IMG/VR virus record: IMGVR_UViG_3300048927_000355
Span: 1-41,089 of that record
Length of the DNA stretch: 41,089 nucleotides
From: a virus
Strand: one strand, 5' to 3'
Every line of letters starts with the position of its first letter. Within the stretch, counting starts at the first letter, position 1. The notes beneath the pieces are model-generated. The model was not told the DNA's origin. It made no database searches and saw nothing but the letters and a program-made list of their open reading frames with translations. Positions 3,656 through 11,121 of the stretch are shown here, piece by piece. Both the position numbers and the translations under genes were made by a program.

Positions 3656-4066
3656 ATGAGCCAGCACAGCGAGCGTACGCAGAACGGGCCATCACGGGTC
3701 AGCATCGTGGCCGGGTTCGGACTGCTGACGACGGTCATGACGGTGACCGCCTGGATCGGGATCGGGGCTGAGAACTGGCGTGAGGTAGCCGGGCTGGTTC
3801 TGGGCGTGTTCGCCTCAGTCCTGGTGCTCGCCCAGGTCACGGCCAGGGTGGTGGAGCGGATGGAGGTCCAGGAGCGCAAGCGGCGCAAGGCCTCGGAAGG
3901 GCTCTGGAACCGGTTGCGGGAGCCGGTCGGCCTGCCACAGATGGGGGACGAGGACGACCTGACGACCCGGCTCGACCCGGGACCGCTGCGGGCCGCGCCG
4001 GTGTTCAGGAGCGAGCGGGAGCGCGCGGCCTGGCTCGATGCGGAGACCGAGGTCATCCGGCACTGA
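3656..4066 (+). CDS. Two-span membrane protein
   Basis: The product has 136 residues with two hydrophobic segments (about 15-37 and 43-62), then a basic, probably coiled-coil helix (ERMEVQERKRRK) and a charged cytoplasmic-type tail. ATG 3656 has AGGGGT upstream. Being close to the lysis cassette it could be a second holin or spanin-like membrane protein, but no family was recognised. A strong hairpin follows at 4101-4131. Confidence 0.6.
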   Translation: MSQHSERTQNGPSRVSIVAGFGLLTTVMTVTAWIGIGAENWREVAGLVLGVFASVLVLAQVTARVVERMEVQERKRRKASEGLWNRLREPVGLPQMGDEDDLTTRLDPGPLRAAPVFRSERERAAWLDAETEVIRH

Positions 4067-4100
4067 GCCGTGTAAGTAGTCGGGTTAGGCGTTGATCCTT

Positions 4101-4131
4101 ACGGGGGGACTTCCACAGGAGGTCCCCCCGT
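4101..4131 (+). terminator. Terminator-like hairpin, GGGGGACC family
   Basis: Stem ACGGGGGGAC / GTCCCCCCGT with outer and inner extensions, followed by TTGTGTGTTT. A second GGTCCCCCC copy lies at 4167-4175 without a partner. Confidence 0.6.
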
Positions 4132-4186
4132 TGTGTGTTTGCCCAGGTGAGGGGACGTGCGAGGAGGTCCCCCCGCAGATCAGGAC

Positions 4187-4214
4187 TTGACTTCGCAGCC
4201 ATGCCTGGTAAGCT
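4187..4214 (+). promoter_or_regulatory. Promoter for a leaderless gene
   Basis: TTGACT (4187-4192), 16-base spacer, TAAGCT (4209-4214) with TG-type extension (TGGTAAGCT). The ATG at 4221 lies 6 bases after the -10 box. Confidence 0.65.
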
Positions 4215-4220
4215 GTGGGC

Positions 4221-4445
4221 ATGGCAACCAACGAGACGACCAGACGGATCGCCAAGGTCCAGGCATTCGAGCTCACCGACTACGACCGACTCGTTGACGA
4301 GCACGGGGAATGGATCGGAACGATTATGGGAGCACCTGACGTTGCACCGTCAAAAGTGACGTTTTCCCTGATCATTGGGGGTGGGCAATCCATCGTCCGG
4401 ACGGTCCGGCCGTCGTCCTGGGTGCGGATCGAGATCGCGCGATGA
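4221..4445 (+). CDS. Hypothetical protein, leaderless
   Basis: The product has 74 residues, predicted mostly beta from residue 30 on; no family recognised. ATG 4221 is preferred because it is at the expected transcription start of the promoter at 4187-4214; no Shine-Dalgarno is present. It contains an operator-like repeat at 4336-4353 and overlaps the next gene by ATGA. Confidence 0.6.
   Translation: MATNETTRRIAKVQAFELTDYDRLVDEHGEWIGTIMGAPDVAPSKVTFSLIIGGGQSIVRTVRPSSWVRIEIAR
4336..4353. promoter_or_regulatory. Operator-like inverted repeat inside a gene, one mismatch
   Basis: CTGAC GTTGCACC GTCAA; the spacer is identical to that of the copy at 2433-2450. Confidence 0.55.
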
Positions 4446-4672
4446 GTGCCGGATACATGCGCCGGTGCTCCGGCAAGAAGCGGCAGAGCGAGGCCGAGGC
4501 CAAGCAGCATCGTAAAAAGCTGGCGGCCAAGCTGATGAAGCCGATCAGCGCGTTCAGCGTCTATCCCTGTGACCAGTGCCTGGGGCACCACGTGGGCGGC
4601 GCGGCCAACGCGTTCATCACCCGAACACGGCGCAGCGGAAAACGGCCGAACAAGAGAATGCGCGGACGCTGA
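4442..4672 (+). CDS. Small basic protein with Cys/His cluster
   Basis: The product has 76 residues, strongly basic throughout, with CDQC and HH close together (about residues 43-50), possibly zinc binding. The start overlaps the previous stop (ATGA). Probable nucleic-acid binder by charge; no family recognised. It ends shortly before a terminator. Confidence 0.6.
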   Translation: MSAGYMRRCSGKKRQSEAEAKQHRKKLAAKLMKPISAFSVYPCDQCLGHHVGGAANAFITRTRRSGKRPNKRMRGR

Positions 4673-4688
4673 GCAATCATCCTAGGAC

Positions 4689-4721
4689 GGCCCCCATCGT
4701 TGCTGGTGGGGGCCGCTTTTT
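4689..4721 (+). terminator. Rho-independent terminator
   Basis: Stem GGCCCCCATC / GGTGGGGGCC (one G-T pair) with loop GTTGCT, then GCTTTTT. Confidence 0.8.
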
Positions 4722-5101
4722 CGGTTGTGGAGACAACTTCACCGGCACGACTTTTCAGACATTGAAGGTCTGCCTGGGCGTGTCGCCGCTGGGAAACCTA
4801 ACGGTGCTAGATATTGGCCAGACGACTTCACACGGGCCCCACAACCCCGGGTTGACTGACGATGTACCAGTTTGCCCGATAATCCCTCTGGTGCGTCCTG
4901 AGTGCCCCAGTTTGCCCATGGGGGACCTAGCTGAGCTTCTCAATACCCCAATTTTTCAGGGAACACCTTTTGTCTACGTATCCGCGCACACACGTAGACA
5001 CGCGCGAGGCCCTGGAAAAAATCGGGGCCTGGAATCAGTCCCCCGGTCCCCCGGTCCCCTAGCGGATCTGCCGATTCTGTATCGCGTGTTAGGATGCGTA
5101 G
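4722..5101. other. Non-coding stretch upstream of the head-gene operon
   Basis: No convincing gene is seen. It holds a direct repeat CCAGTTTGCCC (4867-4877 and 4907-4917), the 133-bp element at 4920-5052, a second GGTCCCC copy, and the -10 box TAGGAT (5090-5095) of the leaderless gene at 5102. A long forward frame running through it from 4576 has no coding character before 5392. Confidence 0.6.
4920..5052. promoter_or_regulatory. Upstream element, copy A (nested inverted repeats)
   Basis: Outer arms GGGGGACC (4920-4927) and GGTCCCCC (5045-5052). Conserved block AGCTTCTCAATACCCCA (4934-4950). Internal perfect stem TGTCTACGT / ACGTAGACA (4971-4979 / 4992-5000). A partner copy at 37470-37603 has the same outer arms, the same block at the same offset and an internal stem with changed but still paired bases. 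The end of the element lies 50 bp before the start codon of the first gene of the operon that includes the portal. I infer a binding platform for a regulator or a structured RNA. Confidence 0.65.
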
Positions 5102-5733: not shown

Positions 5734-6041
5734 ACATCCCGGTCTGGCTGGCCCTGCTGATCTACGCGCTCGCCGTGGCGCGCCTGACCGGGCTCGTGGT
5801 GGCCGACGCGATCACCGAGCCGGTCCGGGACCGGCTCGTGGGGTGGCTGGACGACAGCCCCGGCTCCAGCGGCGAGTGGTTCGCCACCCTGATCCAGTGT
5901 CCCTGGTGCGCCGGGATGTGGATCTCGCTGGCCGCCGCCCCCCTGATCTGGTTCTGGTGGGACTCGCCCGTCATGCTGATACCGGCCATCGCTCTGGCCT
6001 TCTCCCAGGTCGCTGGGTCCATCTCCAACCTCGGGAGGTAA
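5730..6041 (+). CDS. DUF1360-type membrane protein
   Basis: The product has 103 residues. A first hydrophobic helix (about 4-25), a linker, the signature CPWCAGMWIS (about 57-66), which is typical of DUF1360 proteins, and two more hydrophobic helices. GTG 5730 is chosen because TAGGAT (5717-5722) places the transcript start there; ATG 5721 overlaps that box. DUF1360 genes are common next to portal genes in actinophages; function unknown. Seven bases before the portal stop/start junction sits GGGAGG. Confidence 0.8.
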   Translation: MNIPVWLALLIYALAVARLTGLVVADAITEPVRDRLVGWLDDSPGSSGEWFATLIQCPWCAGMWISLAAAPLIWFWWDSPVMLIPAIALAFSQVAGSISNLGR

Positions 6042-6043
6042 CC

Positions 6044-7987
6044 GTGGCTCTCCGCCGTCCACGAGCCCCACAGCCGTCCCAGACGCTCGCTCCCCCATTG
6101 GCGCGCTACCCGGCCGCCCTCAGCGCCGCTACGGCGATCGTGGAGCTCTCCGGCAACTCCTCCTGGAAGACCTGGAAGTTCGGCAACCGCGACTGGCAGA
6201 CCGAAGCCTGGCGGCTTTACGACATCATCGGGGAGCTGCACAAGCTGTCCGGCCGGGTCGGCGACAGCCTCTCCCAGGCGCGCCTCTACGTCACCGAGGT
6301 CAGCGAGACCGGCGAGGAGACCGGCGAGATCGAGGACGAGCGGATCCGGCAACTGGCCGCCGTGCCGCTCGGCACCGGCTCCCAGCGCGACGACAACCTC
6401 CGATTGGCGGGCATCGACCTGGCCGTGGGCGGCGAGTGCTGGATCGTCGGTGAGGGCGCAGCGCGCAACCCCGAGCAGGCCAAGGGCTCGTGGTTCGTGG
6501 TCACCGGCTCGGCCTTCAAGCGCGAGGGCGACGACGTGAAGGTCCGCCGTCCCCAGCAGCGCGGCGGGCAGTACCTCACCCTGGCCGATGGCGTGGACAT
6601 CCTGATCCGCTGCTGGCGGCCACACCCCAACGACACCGACCAGGCCGACAGCTTCACCCGCTCGGCCATCGTGCCGCTGCGGGAGATCGAACTCCTGACC
6701 AAGCGCGAGTTCGCCGAGCTGGACTCCCGGCTCACCGGCGCGGGCATCATGTTCCTGCCCGAAGGTGTCGACTTCCCCCGGGGACCGGACGACCCGGACG
6801 GCATGGCCGGGTTCATGGCCTACATCCAGCGGGCCGCCGCCGCGAGCATGGCCGACCAGAGCCGGGCCAGTGCGATGGTGCCGATCATGGCCACCGTGCC
6901 GGACGAGATGATCCAGTACCTGGACCAGCTCAAGCCGATCAACTTCTGGTCCGAGCTGTCGGCCGAGATCACGCCGATGAAGGACAAGGCGATCGAGCGC
7001 CTGGCGTCCATGGCCGAGATCCCGGCCGAGGTGCTGACCGGCATCGGGGACGCGAACCACTGGACGGCCTGGCTGATCTCCGACGAGGGGATCCGCTGGA
7101 TCCGGGGTTACCTGGGCCTGGTCGCGGACGCACTCACCCGGGGCTTCCTGCGGCGCGCCCTGGAGTCGATGGGTGTCACCGACCCCGAGCGGTACGCGTT
7201 CGCGTTCGACACCTCGGCGCTGGCCAGCAAGCCCAACCGGCTGGACGAGGCCGAGCGGCTGCACGACCGGGGCCTGATCTCCGACGAGGAGCTGGTGAAG
7301 GCCGCCGCCTTCTCGATCGACCAGATGCCGGATCCGGGCCAGCGCGCCGAGCAGATCATCTATCGCCTGGTGATGGCCCAGCCGGATCTCGCCCTGGACC
7401 CTGAGGTCCAGCGGGTGCTCGGCCTGCCCAAGATCCAGAGCGTCGGCCTGCCCCCGACCGCCGATCAGAACACCGATGGCGAGGACGGGGGGACCTCTGG
7501 AGACGGTCCCCCCAACGATGGCGAGGACCCGGACCCACCGGCCGACGACGGTCAGGCGCGTGCGATCACCGCTGCCCTGGACGATCGGATCCGCTCGATT
7601 CAGGCGACGCGCAGCACGGCCCCGGTCTCGCCGCAGGCCGTGTTCAACGCGTCGGCCAAGCTGATGGTGTACCGGGCGCTGGAGCTGGCCGGTGGGCGGC
7701 TGACCACGCCGCAGGAGCGCCGGGGCCGCTGGGCTCAGGTGCCACGTCACGAGCTCCATCACCACGTCGGGCCGATCACGCCGGAGAAGGCGCTGAAGGT
7801 GATCGAGGGGGCCTGGACTCACCTCCCCTTGGCGGCGGCTGATCTCAATGTTGATGCCGAGGCTCTGCACTATGTGCTGGAGTCTTACGTGACTGAGTTG
7901 CTGACCCGTGGGCTCCGGCATCACGACGACATGCTCTATGCCACGCTCGCCATGCCGAACCGGGGAGCCGGTCTGGTCCCGGCATGA
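6044..7987 (+). CDS. Portal protein
   Basis: The product has 647 residues. GTG 6044 follows GGGAGGTAACC. The N-terminal LSGNSSWKTWKFGNRDW region, the alternating strand/helix body and the long helical stem region (about 220-460) match actinophage portal proteins, and it is followed in order by MuF, protease and capsid genes. The dodecameric portal sits at one vertex of the head and is the channel for DNA packaging and ejection. The C-terminal part after residue 480 has an acidic, Gly/Pro-rich linker and then a helical domain; the linker's DNA forms a GGGGGGACC / GGTCCCCCC hairpin (7487-7513). Confidence 0.9.
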   Translation: MALRRPRAPQPSQTLAPPLARYPAALSAATAIVELSGNSSWKTWKFGNRDWQTEAWRLYDIIGELHKLSGRVGDSLSQARLYVTEVSETGEETGEIEDERIRQLAAVPLGTGSQRDDNLRLAGIDLAVGGECWIVGEGAARNPEQAKGSWFVVTGSAFKREGDDVKVRRPQQRGGQYLTLADGVDILIRCWRPHPNDTDQADSFTRSAIVPLREIELLTKREFAELDSRLTGAGIMFLPEGVDFPRGPDDPDGMAGFMAYIQRAAAASMADQSRASAMVPIMATVPDEMIQYLDQLKPINFWSELSAEITPMKDKAIERLASMAEIPAEVLTGIGDANHWTAWLISDEGIRWIRGYLGLVADALTRGFLRRALESMGVTDPERYAFAFDTSALASKPNRLDEAERLHDRGLISDEELVKAAAFSIDQMPDPGQRAEQIIYRLVMAQPDLALDPEVQRVLGLPKIQSVGLPPTADQNTDGEDGGTSGDGPPNDGEDPDPPADDGQARAITAALDDRIRSIQATRSTAPVSPQAVFNASAKLMVYRALELAGGRLTTPQERRGRWAQVPRHELHHHVGPITPEKALKVIEGAWTHLPLAAADLNVDAEALHYVLESYVTELLTRGLRHHDDMLYATLAMPNRGAGLVPA

Positions 7988-8028: not shown

Positions 8029-8181
8029 ATGCTGTGTGAGAGATGTCAGGGAGCTGGCCGGGACCTCGTTCCCTGCTCGAATTGCAAGGGCCACCGCAAC
8101 GGTTGCCGTCACTGCGTGCGTGGCCAGCAGGAGATTGCGTGCCCGCGCTGTAGCGGCACGGGCAACCGGAGGAAGTCCTGA
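8029..8181 (+). CDS. Zinc-domain array gene 1 (DnaJ-type CxxC repeats)
   Basis: The product has 50 residues with four cysteine pairs: CERCQGAG, CSNCKG, CRHC and CPRCSGTG. This is the complete set of a DnaJ cysteine-rich domain (two zinc sites) without the J domain or peptide-binding domains. Leaderless ATG after TAAAGT. It is the first of nine consecutive paralogues between portal and MuF; its stop overlaps the next start (TGATG). Confidence 0.8.
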   Translation: MLCERCQGAGRDLVPCSNCKGHRNGCRHCVRGQQEIACPRCSGTGNRRKS

Positions 8182-8330
8182 TGGCTACATGCCGTAGCTG
8201 CGGAGGCAGTGGACGACAGTCGATCCAGTGCGAGCGACGGCACTCCTCGGACCGGGTCTGTCCCAAGTGCGGGAACACGGGCCGGATCTCCTATCCGTGC
8301 GTCGAGTGCTCAGGCTCGGGGCACTCCTGA
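8181..8330 (+). CDS. Zinc-domain array gene 2
   Basis: The product has 49 residues: CRSCGGSG, CERRH (a C/H pair in place of a Cys pair), CPKCGNTG and CVECSGSG. The second site is the degenerate one. Start and stop are both one-base overlaps (TGATG), so translation should be coupled along the array. Confidence 0.75.
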   Translation: MATCRSCGGSGRQSIQCERRHSSDRVCPKCGNTGRISYPCVECSGSGHS

Positions 8331-8479
8331 TGGCGGCCACGTGCGGCCGGTGTCTGGGTACCGGCAAAGAGATGGTGGTCTGTTACAAGTGCAACGGCTC
8401 CGGCAAGAACTGCGGAGCCTGTGAGCACGGGTTCCGGGTCCGGATCTGCGATCGGTGCGGCGGGACGGGGCAGCGATGA
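8330..8479 (+). CDS. Zinc-domain array gene 3
   Basis: The product has 49 residues: CGRCLGTG, CYKCNGSG, CGAC and CDRCGGTG, with all four pairs intact. The third pair lacks the GxG, as in genes 1 and 4. It overlaps the next gene by ATGA. Confidence 0.75.
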   Translation: MAATCGRCLGTGKEMVVCYKCNGSGKNCGACEHGFRVRICDRCGGTGQR

Positions 8480-8622
8480 AGGACAACCCGTGCGGCCGGT
8501 GCTCCGGCGTCGGCAAAGAGTGGATCCGGTGCGGTGACTGTGACGGCAAGGGGTGTCAGCACTGTGTCCTGGGTTACAGGACGATGATTTGCTCGCTGTG
8601 CACCGGGACCGGGAGGCACTGA
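8476..8622 (+). CDS. Zinc-domain array gene 4
   Basis: The product has 48 residues: CGRCSGVG, CGDCDGKG, CQHC and CSLCTGTG. It is closest in layout to gene 3 (same KE-W/M spacing between pairs 1 and 2), so these two probably share a recent ancestor. One-base overlap with the next start. Confidence 0.75.
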   Translation: MKDNPCGRCSGVGKEWIRCGDCDGKGCQHCVLGYRTMICSLCTGTGRH

Positions 8623-8819
8623 TGACGGGCCGGAGAAGACCACGGCCGAGCGGGCCGCGCGGAACGTGCCGGGGCTGTGGTGGCGATGGGTTCCGTGCAC
8701 TGACTTGCCAGCTCTGCCACGGCAAGGGGTGCAAATCGGGCAACGAGTGCCGGGCGGGCCGGGTCAACGTGGCCTGCAACGTGTGCCTGGGAACCGGCCG
8801 GGACGGAGAGGACCGGTGA
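8622..8819 (+). CDS. Zinc-domain array gene 5, with basic N-terminal extension
   Basis: The product has 65 residues. A basic leader (MTGRRRPRPSGPRG) precedes CRGCGGDG, CQLCHGKG, a C-x5-C pair (CKSGNEC) and CNVCLGTG. The leader could bind nucleic acid. It overlaps the next gene by GTGA. Confidence 0.75.
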   Translation: MTGRRRPRPSGPRGTCRGCGGDGFRALTCQLCHGKGCKSGNECRAGRVNVACNVCLGTGRDGEDR

Positions 8820-9001
8820 GCCCGGACGCGCGGACCAAGCCGTGCCGGACCTGCGGAGCCAGCGGTTATATCTGGTACACCTGCTCGACCTGTACCGGCA
8901 CGGGGCTGGTCAGCGGGAGAAACTGCAAAGTCTGTTTCGGCAACGGTGGGCGTAACGGCAATTGCTTCACCTGCGGTGGACGGGGAGAGGTTGAACGATG
9001 A
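8816..9001 (+). CDS. Zinc-domain array gene 6
   Basis: The product has 61 residues: CRTCGASG, CSTCTGTG, CKVCFGNG and CFTCGGRG, all four with the full CxxCxGxG or near it. Start GTG 8816; ATGA overlap with the next gene. Confidence 0.75.
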   Translation: MSPDARTKPCRTCGASGYIWYTCSTCTGTGLVSGRNCKVCFGNGGRNGNCFTCGGRGEVER

Positions 9002-9156
9002 AGACCAAGAACGTGTGTCAGGTCTGCGGTGGTCAGGGCCGGATCTGGCTCAACTGCCAGATGCGCTGTGGCGGCAAGAGGGATTGCATCGTCTGCTCCG
9101 GGATGGGCAAGGTCTACACGACGTGTACCAAGTGCAAGGGGTCGGGCTACTCATGA
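8998..9156 (+). CDS. Zinc-domain array gene 7
   Basis: The product has 52 residues: CQVCGGQG, a C-x3-C pair (CQMRC), CIVCSGMG and CTKCKGSG. From here on the second pair has three residues between the cysteines, a change shared with genes 8 and 9, so 7-9 form a subgroup. Confidence 0.75.
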   Translation: MKTKNVCQVCGGQGRIWLNCQMRCGGKRDCIVCSGMGKVYTTCTKCKGSGYS

Positions 9157-9320
9157 GCGGCAATCGCAAACCGGATCCGTGCCGCAGGTGCCAGGGCCGG
9201 GGAACCGTCGATGCCCGGTGCACCCAGAACTGCGGGCGCGATCGCAAGTGCCCGGTATGTCGGGGCAGCGGGCACACCTTGGTCACATGCACGTCGTGCT
9301 GGGGAAGGGGGAATCTGTGA
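9153..9320 (+). CDS. Zinc-domain array gene 8
   Basis: The product has 55 residues: CRRCQGRG, CTQNC, CPVCRGSG and CTSCWGRG. It shares a 45-bp identical segment (9195-9239) with gene 9 (9362-9406) and most of the rest, pointing to a recent tandem duplication. ATGA start, GTGA end overlap. Confidence 0.75.
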   Translation: MSGNRKPDPCRRCQGRGTVDARCTQNCGRDRKCPVCRGSGHTLVTCTSCWGRGNL

Positions 9321-9406
9321 GCAGGCCGAAGGACGTTCCCGCGCAGTGCCCGATGTGCCACGGCCGGGGAACCGTCGATGCCCGGTGCACCCAGAACTGC
9401 GGGCGC
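9195..9406 (+). repeat. Tandem duplication within the zinc-domain array
   Basis: Two 45-bp identical segments, 9195-9239 and 9362-9406, 167 bp apart, each encoding RGTVDARCTQNCGR. The flanks are similar but diverged. Confidence 0.8.
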
Positions 9407-9487
9407 AACCGTAAGTGCGGCCAGTGCGGTGGCAGCGGGCACACCCTGGTCACGTGCACCCGGTGCTGGGGGAGTGGGGTCAAATGA
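9317..9487 (+). CDS. Zinc-domain array gene 9
   Basis: The product has 56 residues: CPMCHGRG, CTQNC, CGQCGGSG and CTRCWGSG. Start GTG 9317; the stop overlaps the MuF start by ATGA, tying the array to head-protein translation. Confidence 0.75.
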   Translation: MSRPKDVPAQCPMCHGRGTVDARCTQNCGRNRKCGQCGGSGHTLVTCTRCWGSGVK

Positions 9488-11121
9488 CCGAGCCGGTCTG
9501 GAACGGCCGGGGCCGCGATCCGTGGCTCCCCCAGCGCCTGGAGGCACGGCTGGAGATCGCGACGATAGAGCGGCAGGTCCGTGCCGCTGTCTGGGCCGCG
9601 CTCTCCGATTGGCTGGTCCAGACCGCCCGGCGCGTCCTGAGAGGGACGACCGAGGTCCCGGCCCCGGATGCGATCTGGGCGCGCGTGCCCGCCTGGCGCG
9701 AGGCCGTGGAGCTCATTCTGAACGGCGAGATCCTGAAGGCGCTCGGTGTGGCGTTCGAGCGGATCCTGGGGCCGGGCTCCGGCTGGGAAGGCCGGGAGTT
9801 CACCACGAACTACCTGGCCGAGGTGCGCAACCGGATGGTCCGGATCCCGGACGAGGTGTTCGACCTGGTGGCCGGGCAGATCTCTCAGGGGGTCAACCTG
9901 GGTGACTCGATCCCTGAGCTGGCCATGCGAGTTGACAATGTCCTGTCAACGACCAAGTCGGAGCGCTGGCGCAACCGGGCTGTGGTCGTGGCCCGGACCG
10001 AGGCTATCGGTGCGATGAACGCCGGTCGGCTGGAAGCGTTCAAGATCGTGGCCGAGGACGAGGACGGCCCGATGGAGAAGCTGTGGCTGGCCACCGAGGA
10101 CAGCCGGACCCGGGAGACACATCAGGAGGCTGACGGGCAACGGGTCGCTCTCGCTTCCCCGTTCTCGGTCGGCCTGGCCCAGCTCCAGTTTCCGGGCGAC
10201 CCGAGTGGTCCTCCCCAGGAAGTGATCCAGTGCGTGATCGAGTCAACGAAGGTCGCGTGGCCTAGGCAAGCGTTGTACGGGTCTACCCGCCGACGCCATT
10301 ACGGCCCGCTGGTCCAGCTCATCACGGCTGAAGGGCACGACCTCACCGTCACCCCGAATCACCCGGTACTCACCCCCACCGGGTATATCCCGGCTGGTTT
10401 GCTGAGCAAAGGTCAGGACGTCCTGGCCACCCCGGAGCCCCCATCCCCAGAGGTACACAACGCTCCATTCTGCGTCGAGGAGATTCACAGTGCGCTGAGC
10501 CAAGCGGGGGAGTCTGAGCGGGTGATGGGCAGCCGAATGGATTTCCACGGCGACGGTTCCCCCGATGACGAAGTCGAGATTGTAAGCGCCAACGGCGACC
10601 TGACTCGATACGTCAACCCCCGTGGATTCAGCGAGCGCTTGAAAACGGGCTTCGTCCGGCTGGAGGACCGAACGCGTCCTCTGTCTGGTTTGAGCAATTC
10701 CGTGGTTACGCTGACTCCAGTCCCCGGTGGGCCGGACGACATGTTTACGGGCCGCCTCGTTGGCCTGAGCGGTGAGGGCGCGCCGGTCGGCGGGGGAGAG
10801 ACGGGCGAGGCGCAAGCGGTTCGCTTCGCTTCCGCTCCGGACCTCCAGGTTGAGGGCGATCAAGTGCCGGACGATGGTCGGACGGCTGAGTCCGATTTCC
10901 CGGCTCATCTTCAGTACGCTCTGGCCAGCGGCATGGCGGTAACGAAGATCGTCGATGTCAATAGGCTTTCGGGCAACCACTGGGTATACAACCTTTCCAC
11001 CTCAGACCATTGGTTCACCGGCAATGGTATCGCATTGCACAACTGTCGGTGCACGATGCTCCTCGTGGAACCCGGAGAAGACGTGGACCTGAGCAACCGC
11101 CAGATGCGCCGCAACCGGTAG
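9484..11121 (+). CDS. MuF-like minor head protein containing an intein
   Basis: The full product has 545 residues; ATG 9484 overlaps the previous stop (ATGA). The host (extein) part is about 274 residues and ends in the conserved MuF motif: TEDSRTRETHQEADGQ, then PGDPSGPP, then CRCTMLL. MuF proteins are a few copies per head, next to the portal, and act in head morphogenesis or ejection. The intein, residues 250-520, splits the motif right before CRC, so splicing is needed to restore it. An operator-like repeat lies at 9932-9949. The next gene is the capsid protease. Confidence 0.9.
   Translation: MTEPVWNGRGRDPWLPQRLEARLEIATIERQVRAAVWAALSDWLVQTARRVLRGTTEVPAPDAIWARVPAWREAVELILNGEILKALGVAFERILGPGSGWEGREFTTNYLAEVRNRMVRIPDEVFDLVAGQISQGVNLGDSIPELAMRVDNVLSTTKSERWRNRAVVVARTEAIGAMNAGRLEAFKIVAEDEDGPMEKLWLATEDSRTRETHQEADGQRVALASPFSVGLAQLQFPGDPSGPPQEVIQCVIESTKVAWPRQALYGSTRRRHYGPLVQLITAEGHDLTVTPNHPVLTPTGYIPAGLLSKGQDVLATPEPPSPEVHNAPFCVEEIHSALSQAGESERVMGSRMDFHGDGSPDDEVEIVSANGDLTRYVNPRGFSERLKTGFVRLEDRTRPLSGLSNSVVTLTPVPGGPDDMFTGRLVGLSGEGAPVGGGETGEAQAVRFASAPDLQVEGDQVPDDGRTAESDFPAHLQYALASGMAVTKIVDVNRLSGNHWVYNLSTSDHWFTGNGIALHNCRCTMLLVEPGEDVDLSNRQMRRNR
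9932..9949. promoter_or_regulatory. Operator-like inverted repeat inside the MuF gene, perfect copy
   Basis: TTGAC AATGTCCT GTCAA, in the N-terminal extein coding region. Confidence 0.65.
10231..11043 (+). mobile_element. Intein coding region (271 residues) in the MuF gene
   Basis: It starts at Cys (TGC 10231) and ends at His-Asn (AAC 11043), followed by Cys +1 (TGT 11044). Block A CVIESTKVAWPRQALYG, block B LTVTPNHPVLT with Thr and His three apart, and C-terminal blocks VYNLSTSDHWF and GIALHN are all present, so the splicing (Hint) domain should be active. Between them about 160 residues contain RMDFHGDG, a motif I associate with phage Hint proteins. No LAGLIDADG or HNH endonuclease is read in this sense; instead the opposite strand carries one. 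GC at third positions falls here compared with the neighbours, which fits transfer or double coding. Confidence 0.9.
10243..10980 (-). CDS. Putative homing endonuclease encoded antisense within the intein
   Basis: The product has 245 residues. GTG 10980 is preceded on the reverse strand by GAGGTGGAAAGG, about 11 bases away. A helix-turn-helix (about residues 8-45, KMSREIGLSRPTIVRHL) and a basic linker precede a nuclease-like segment (about 110-180): AYNLDFVIGGTVAVEIHSAAHH and then SVVYLWGWG. The Asp136 ... Glu146-x-His148 arrangement with flanking hydrophobic strands resembles the Vsr/DUF559-like PD-(D/E)xK fold, also used by the EDxHD homing endonucleases. The whole gene lies inside the intein, start in block F/G and stop in block A. 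That position implies it spreads the intein. Confidence 0.75.
   Translation of the reverse strand: MVARKPIDIDDLRYRHAAGQSVLKMSREIGLSRPTIVRHLIALNLEVRSGSEANRLRLARLSPADRRALTAQANEAARKHVVRPTGDWSQRNHGIAQTRQRTRSVLQPDEARFQALAESTGVDVSSQVAVGAYNLDFVIGGTVAVEIHSAAHHPLRLPRLAQRTVNLLDAEWSVVYLWGWGLRGGQDVLTFAQQTSRDIPGGGEYRVIRGDGEVVPFSRDELDQRAVMASAGRPVQRLPRPRDLR

Follow-up and report, generated by a model that had tools for sequence, protein, structure and literature searches.

Between the portal and MuF genes of this viral record, nine open reading frames in tandem (positions 8029-9487, 48-65 residues each) encode proteins each of which appears, from its ligand pattern, to be a small two-zinc protein of the DnaJ type. 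The whole 41,089-nucleotide stretch that was analysed is referred to below as the window. A sequence-only reading of this DNA had described nine consecutive, tiny, overlapping genes here, and this description holds in both coordinates and junctions. The reading that we favour, and to which we would give an even chance, is that these genes are an accessory set of zinc binding modules that arose by tandem duplication, are translated by coupling and probably act on the host. Free-standing DnaJ-type zinc domains are already known, while no other series of three or more separate compact genes for such domains was met in the searches made here.

Layout, zinc ligands and family of the nine units

The array is flanked on the left by the portal gene, whose counterpart in Actinoplanes phage phiAsp2 (Pas4) is the annotated portal protein in NC_005885, and on the right by the gene of a MuF head protein (Phage_Mu_F E 5.1e-12, above cut-off) that harbors an intein (Intein_splicing E 2.3e-4, below its own cut-off); the phiAsp2 MuF homologue, Pas6, is continuous across the intein site, without an insert (Table 1). 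All nine units are uninterrupted open frames. The eight internal junctions are overlaps of 1 or 4 nt, in the form of TGATG, ATGA or GTGA, and an overlap of 4 nt also joins gene 9 to the start of MuF, i.e., the only step with a gap (41 nt) is that from portal to gene 1. The GC content is 66% in the array vs 67% in the window, and GC3 of the units (0.73-0.86) is mostly lower than that of the portal (0.90) and MuF (0.86) genes, which may hint at another origin.

Table 1. Features of the portal-MuF region and two further reading frames in the window
Feature	Position	Strand	Remark
Portal protein gene (649 aa)	6038..7987	+	left slot border; 76% identity to phiAsp2 Pas4
Zinc unit 1, 50 aa	8029..8181	+	
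Zinc unit 2, 49 aa	8181..8330	+	pair 2 is C-x3-H
Zinc unit 3, 49 aa	8330..8479	+	AlphaFold2 model made
Zinc unit 4, 48 aa	8476..8622	+	
Zinc unit 5, 65 aa	8622..8819	+	basic leader; pair 3 is C-x5-C
Zinc unit 6, 61 aa	8816..9001	+	
Zinc unit 7, 52 aa	8998..9156	+	pair 2 is C-x3-C; AlphaFold2 model made
Zinc unit 8, 55 aa	9153..9320	+	pair 2 is C-x3-C; recent duplicate with unit 9
Zinc unit 9, 56 aa	9317..9487	+	pair 2 is C-x3-C; recent duplicate with unit 8
MuF head protein gene	9484..11121	+	right slot border; contains the intein
MuF intein	about 10231-11046	+	
Antisense ORF, 245 aa	10243-10980	-	within the MuF intein
Secreted-looking protein, 390 aa	12977-14149	+	no Pfam match at E 0.05

The cysteine counts of units 1-9 are 8, 7, 8, 8, 8, 8, 8, 8 and 8, and in unit 2 the eighth ligand place is taken, by inspection, by histidine, i.e., every unit has eight ligands and all 72 positions are filled (71 Cys and 1 His). 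Canonical CxxCxGxG motifs number two in each of units 1 and 2 and three in each of units 3-9, so that the initial description of four cysteine pairs of this type per gene is not borne out: each unit has two or three such motifs and none has four. Two spacers are constant at five residues in 9/9 units (by inspection), namely that from pair 1 to pair 2 and that from the last Gly of pair 3 to pair 4, and the units differ in the part that lies between these spacers. The patterning of the variation that had been noted stands for pair 2 of genes 7-9 (C-x3-C), with corrections at gene 2 (C-x3-H) and at pair 3 of gene 5 (C-x5-C). In all nine units the K+R content exceeds that of D+E.

With a unit-like frame defined as one that has at least three CxxC and at least two CxxCxGxG motifs, the plus strand contains nine in the region and nine in the whole window and the minus strand 0, i.e., no further such frame was found elsewhere in the window on either strand. 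None was seen in 2000 first-order Markov resamples of the region or in 30 of the whole window. A strict pattern with fixed spacings is matched by five of the nine units, vs a mean of 0.00 matches in 100 dinucleotide shuffles of the window.

The Pfam family DnaJ_CXXCXGXG (PF00684) is listed for seven units at E up to 1 (units 4 and 5 are not listed), and its gathering cut-off of 32.7 bits is reached by none, the best score being 23.5 bits (unit 2); DUF5351 is also listed for 7/9 units, none reaching the cut-off. A profile of 14 rows finds solved DnaJ zinc domains first (1exk from E. coli DnaJ, E 3.2e-7; 2ctt, 2.2e-6; 6jzb, 5.4e-6), and in these alignments query pairs 1, 3 and 4 pair best with DnaJ pairs. 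A J-domain with an HPD motif is the criterion for an Hsp40/DnaJ co-chaperone; inspection of the nine translations revealed none, and only short tails are found outside the zinc module. The AlphaFold2 models are fair (unit 3, pLDDT 86 and pTM 0.51; unit 7, pLDDT 84 and pTM 0.54), and the solved structures closest to them, i.e., BSD2, DnaJ zinc domains, the lambda Q zinc module and UvrA zinc modules, all match weakly, with no Foldseek E below 0.001 and no Z of 5 or above. The earlier label of a free-standing DnaJ-type zinc domain is thus backed by the profile and by weak structural matches, but not by any unit at the Pfam cut-off, and the units are fairly described as compact relatives of the DnaJ zinc domain that lack a J-domain.

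Comparison with known systems places the likeness to PF00684 in the Cys pairs with their CxxCxGxG knuckles, whereas the units differ in being free-standing and short and in having only two or three canonical motifs. Their spacers after pair 1 and before pair 4 are five residues long, whereas those of DnaJ are longer. The lambda Q zinc module and anti-TRAP display a similar compact zinc knuckle, but Q is a larger antiterminator, and anti-TRAP has one zinc per 53-aa chain. The BSD2/ZnJ2 proteins of plastids also have a DnaJ-type zinc domain without a J-domain; they are plant or algal proteins with known clients, according to the available text of PMC5818400, and the match of unit 3 to BSD2, its top one in Foldseek (6ekb), is weak (E 0.014, TM 0.53). 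In marine HMO-2011-type phages, two CxxCxGxG motifs, described as a partial DnaJ central domain in the available portions of PMC9038755 and PMC6918029, are located inside one DNA polymerase, whereas the window units are separate genes.

The portal-MuF slot and the spread of the units

The closest annotated phage by DNA, phiAsp2 (protein identity to the window 62% for MuF; for portal, see Table 1), holds between these two genes only pas5, a 28-codon ORF without cysteine. Relatives were gathered as 12 loci by MuF and 66 loci by portal alignment, together with phiAsp2, L020 and the window. After merging of overlapping loci of one contig and of identical gaps, and exclusion of L090, L101 and L102, in which the portal end or MuF is missing, these yield 63 distinct portal-MuF gaps, window included, that range from a slight overlap up to 1500 nt. 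Judged by eye, relatives have a variety of genes there: some encode membrane microproteins, others zinc proteins unlike the units, a secreted-looking protein or members of a recurrent TGRRN...YLQ family. In phiAsp2-like phages, this gap is a variable slot for small accessory genes, which marks it as a collecting place for such genes in this phage group.

Searched in six frames with the unit profile, the 63 gaps yield 13 units, which are located in four of the gaps: nine in the window, two in UViG_3300048902_000256 (L055) and one each in L088 and L104. The next match is at E 0.09, and nothing else scores below. All 13 frames are open and 12 have eight ligand residues; pair 3 of the second L055 unit consists of two adjacent Cys, and the single L104 unit, with seven of eight ligands, may be decaying. 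Broken copies were sought among the nine window units and in the 63 slots, and none was found beyond this seven-ligand unit. The three other carriers have the same compact unit in the same slot, with at most two copies per phage vs nine. Beyond the slot, the complete records of 32 distinct relatives (searched as sets of 13 and 20 with one in common) yielded no compact unit, but three of them do have two-pair zinc genes there. According to the sequence-only reading, an array whose relatives carry a single such gene, with the other copies broken, would be a passive duplication; unit-bearing relatives do carry just one or two, whereas the window copies are unbroken.

On a portal tree of 64 rows (62 distinct after merging of two identical pairs, 61 with an assessable slot; loci with a best portal segment below 400 residues, among them L007, L008, L010, L015 and L116, are excluded), unit presence requires four changes, which is also the minimum forced by the starred branches, and the carriers are no more clustered than shuffled labels (500/500 as low). 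Three of the four carriers group within a single supported set of nine rows; two other members of this set, L060 and L061, have no unit, although their portal differs from that of L104 by only about 0.05 changes per column. By this distribution, the unit family has been gained or lost several times, the tree indicating neither direction. The resulting natural copy series of 0, 1, 2 and 9 lets one ask what these zinc microproteins bind and why there are many.

Within the array, genes 8 and 9 are recent duplicates, with 83% identity over 133 nt, dN of 0.255 and dS of 0.581. Their protein differences are located in the N-terminal tails and the knuckles, changed residues making up 7/13 of knuckle vs 2/23 of linker positions (Fisher p 0.005 for this one pair, post hoc). 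The remaining window pairs are only 27-47% identical, and most copies are therefore old or arrived separately; the codon-position mismatch over all 36 pairs (0.51/0.51/0.60) is so saturated that it gives no useful signal. No branch of the unit tree is starred, and the nine window units form one clade in 0% of 200 bootstrap trees, so that part of the array may stem from acquisition and not from local copying; a single clade is not rejected (AU p 0.22). Duplication and divergence, one of the possibilities raised at the outset, is supported by the copy numbers of 9, 2, 1, 1 or 0 in a variable slot and by the recent 8/9 pair. The endonuclease of the MuF intein is an unlikely driver of this amplification, because none of the nine relatives with a related intein (L077, L103, L009, L086, L083, L008, L116, L061 and L063) carries a unit.

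Searches beyond this slot were made in viral contigs, annotated phages and bacterial genomes. Three strict unit patterns matched 6, 1 and 4 stretches of viral contigs, among them L020, the two-unit relative, and L030 and L032 with one similar unit each; a second CxxCxGxG gene of L030 is about 0.7 kb away, non-adjacent, among genes that look glycosyltransferase-like by eye, and the remaining matches were rejected as motifs inside single, longer or unlike ORFs. A single-protein scan of the viral contigs with unit 8 found a two-pair gene at two loci in unrelated phages, and a sub-alignment scan returned the two-unit relative and two unrelated loci. Units 9 and 3 as queries against the annotated phage collection matched 6 records and 1 record, respectively, at E 0.1 to 0.5. 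No series of three or more separate compact genes was met in the viral contigs as scanned with three strict patterns, one protein and one sub-alignment, where the patterns detect exact spacings only (4/9 window units miss the first one) and arrays with other spacings could escape.

In the genome collection, the strict unit pattern is found in 21 stretches, none of which, scanned over at most 8 kb each, has a run of separate compact genes, which argues against the array as a general feature of bacterial genomes. Among 394 genomes in the class of the Streptomyces locus L047, there were 0 at E 1e-7, a weak negative with 16 candidates scored in each of 20 listed genomes; the model used recovers 9/9 window units and had no bacterial positive control. 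A search of the open-licence literature found no report of a phage DnaJ-type array.

What the zinc units may do

The mechanism that we favour starts from a slot that takes optional small genes and that in this phage is filled by one family only, i.e., the gene of a J-less, DnaJ-type, putative two-zinc microprotein, nine in tandem, much diverged and with at least one recent duplication (8/9). By inspection, the G-rich codons of the last CxxCxGxG motif are found directly upstream of each following start codon. Each unit may be a self-contained cassette, a copied unit bringing its own coupling signal, and every copy would be translatable by coupling from the preceding one. In DnaJ, the zincs are bound by pairs 1+4 and 2+3, and each of the proteins would fold around two zincs in the same manner, forming a small binding module without a J-domain or enzyme activity. 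The partners would be host proteins, bound in host takeover or counter-defence, with the knuckle residues as a changing contact surface, and the units would be made together with the head genes.

The variable slot, the scatter among relatives, the expansion and the change in the knuckles fit accessory binders of something that itself varies, most simply host proteins or defence components. That phages can multiply anti-defence genes is described in the available text of PMC13096335. Retention of the ligands by all nine units argues against idle copies. Head genes are late genes, and a location among them is hard to reconcile with an early counter-defence role, unless the virion carries the proteins along. 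A bolder version, which we offer as speculation and would not expect to hold, is that the slot acts as an accordion of zinc-knuckle binders, in which copying of a self-coupled 150-nt cassette combined with rapid knuckle change would generate an evolvable library of binders of host factors or defence components, possibly delivered by the virion.

The main rival, given the likeness to lambda Q and anti-TRAP, is nucleic-acid binding: the zinc modules would be nucleic-acid or transcription regulators that bind DNA, RNA or a regulatory protein, with a target for each unit. We consider this unlikely, although several observations point toward it. The structures nearest to unit 7 are lambda Q chains (E 0.05-0.4), unit 3 matches lambda Q by VIA-align (Z 4.6) and, weakly, anti-TRAP (3ld0, 1.1 A over 28 residues, Z 2.5), PHROG lists weak matches to Q-like antiterminators (best E 9e-4, unit 7), and all nine units have the basic excess described above. 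On the other hand, the Q zinc module belongs to a larger protein, and matches of the size of a unit reflect a common zinc knuckle.

More doubtful is a passive tandem duplication, in which an optional zinc gene was multiplied by unequal recombination and the copy number is not selected. Such a process would account for a copy number that varies among relatives, for junctions that let a whole unit be copied with its coupling, for the ligand lost in L104 and for the low identity of most window pairs; but long-idle copies are expected to decay, whereas nine units remain open with every ligand position filled despite strong divergence, and for genes 8 and 9 dN is below dS.

Least likely is the chaperone set for head assembly that the sequence-only reading had suggested, in which the units would do for portal, MuF or capsid subunits what BSD2 does for Rubisco, holding them during assembly: the genes do lie between portal and MuF and overlap the latter, BSD2 does top the unit 3 search and J-less zinc chaperones of the DnaJ type do exist (ZnJ2/BSD2; available text of PMC5818400), but 59 of the 63 slots, phiAsp2 with only pas5 included, have homologous portal and MuF genes without any unit, which makes a core role unlikely, and one assembly step needs no nine divergent copies. 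A helper role in head assembly in some hosts may be compatible with these sequences.

Other genes of the slot and an antisense frame in the MuF intein

Several further features were noted in these phages. In the L067 record, two adjacent small two-pair zinc genes are found outside the slot (G016:C1:1231-1469), which gives this phage group a further short tandem of zinc microproteins. The slot of L070 contains, after portal, a 438-aa secreted-looking protein, the likeness of which to the 390-aa protein of the window (Table 1) is by eye only. In L072, the slot (7396-7980, plus strand) encodes a 194-aa fusion of a ribosomal L10 domain (E 1.8e-7) and an L7/L12 C-terminal domain (E 4.9e-25), each of which scores higher than its Pfam cut-off. 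L12 domains are known in phages (PMC6375957), and in the available text of that paper no mention of an L10-L12 fusion was found. The portal match of L008 is interrupted at residue 343 and picks up again about 1 kb further on (about 4036-5018, plus strand), and that of L116 likewise ends at residue 343; the break is possibly an intein or a similar element.

The MuF intein of the window contains a 245-aa antisense ORF that matches REase_MTES_1575 (E 0.0022) and HTH_29 (E 0.018), both below cut-off, and that looks like a real endonuclease-type gene; it merits separate study. A hidden HNH endonuclease has been described in an insertion without splicing domains, where it is out of frame on the same strand (available text of PMC11855218), whereas the window ORF is antisense and within an intein, and no report of an antisense one was found in the literature searched. 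At E 0.01 the ORF is matched by 127 annotated phage records; the annotation of Gordonia phage Sedona lists no antisense gene. All nine inteins examined, that of the window included, have an open antisense frame, and the identity of the antisense protein exceeds that of the sense protein in 9/9 matching relatives (e.g., 74% vs 67% in L077, 69% vs 61% in L103 and 58% vs 54% in L009), as it does in the Gordonia phage matches (about 50% vs 42%). The codon-position signal is mixed in the N- and C-blocks of the intein, while in its middle sense codon position 1 is more variable than position 3 in 8/8 relatives, and the extein displays the reverse, also in 8/8.
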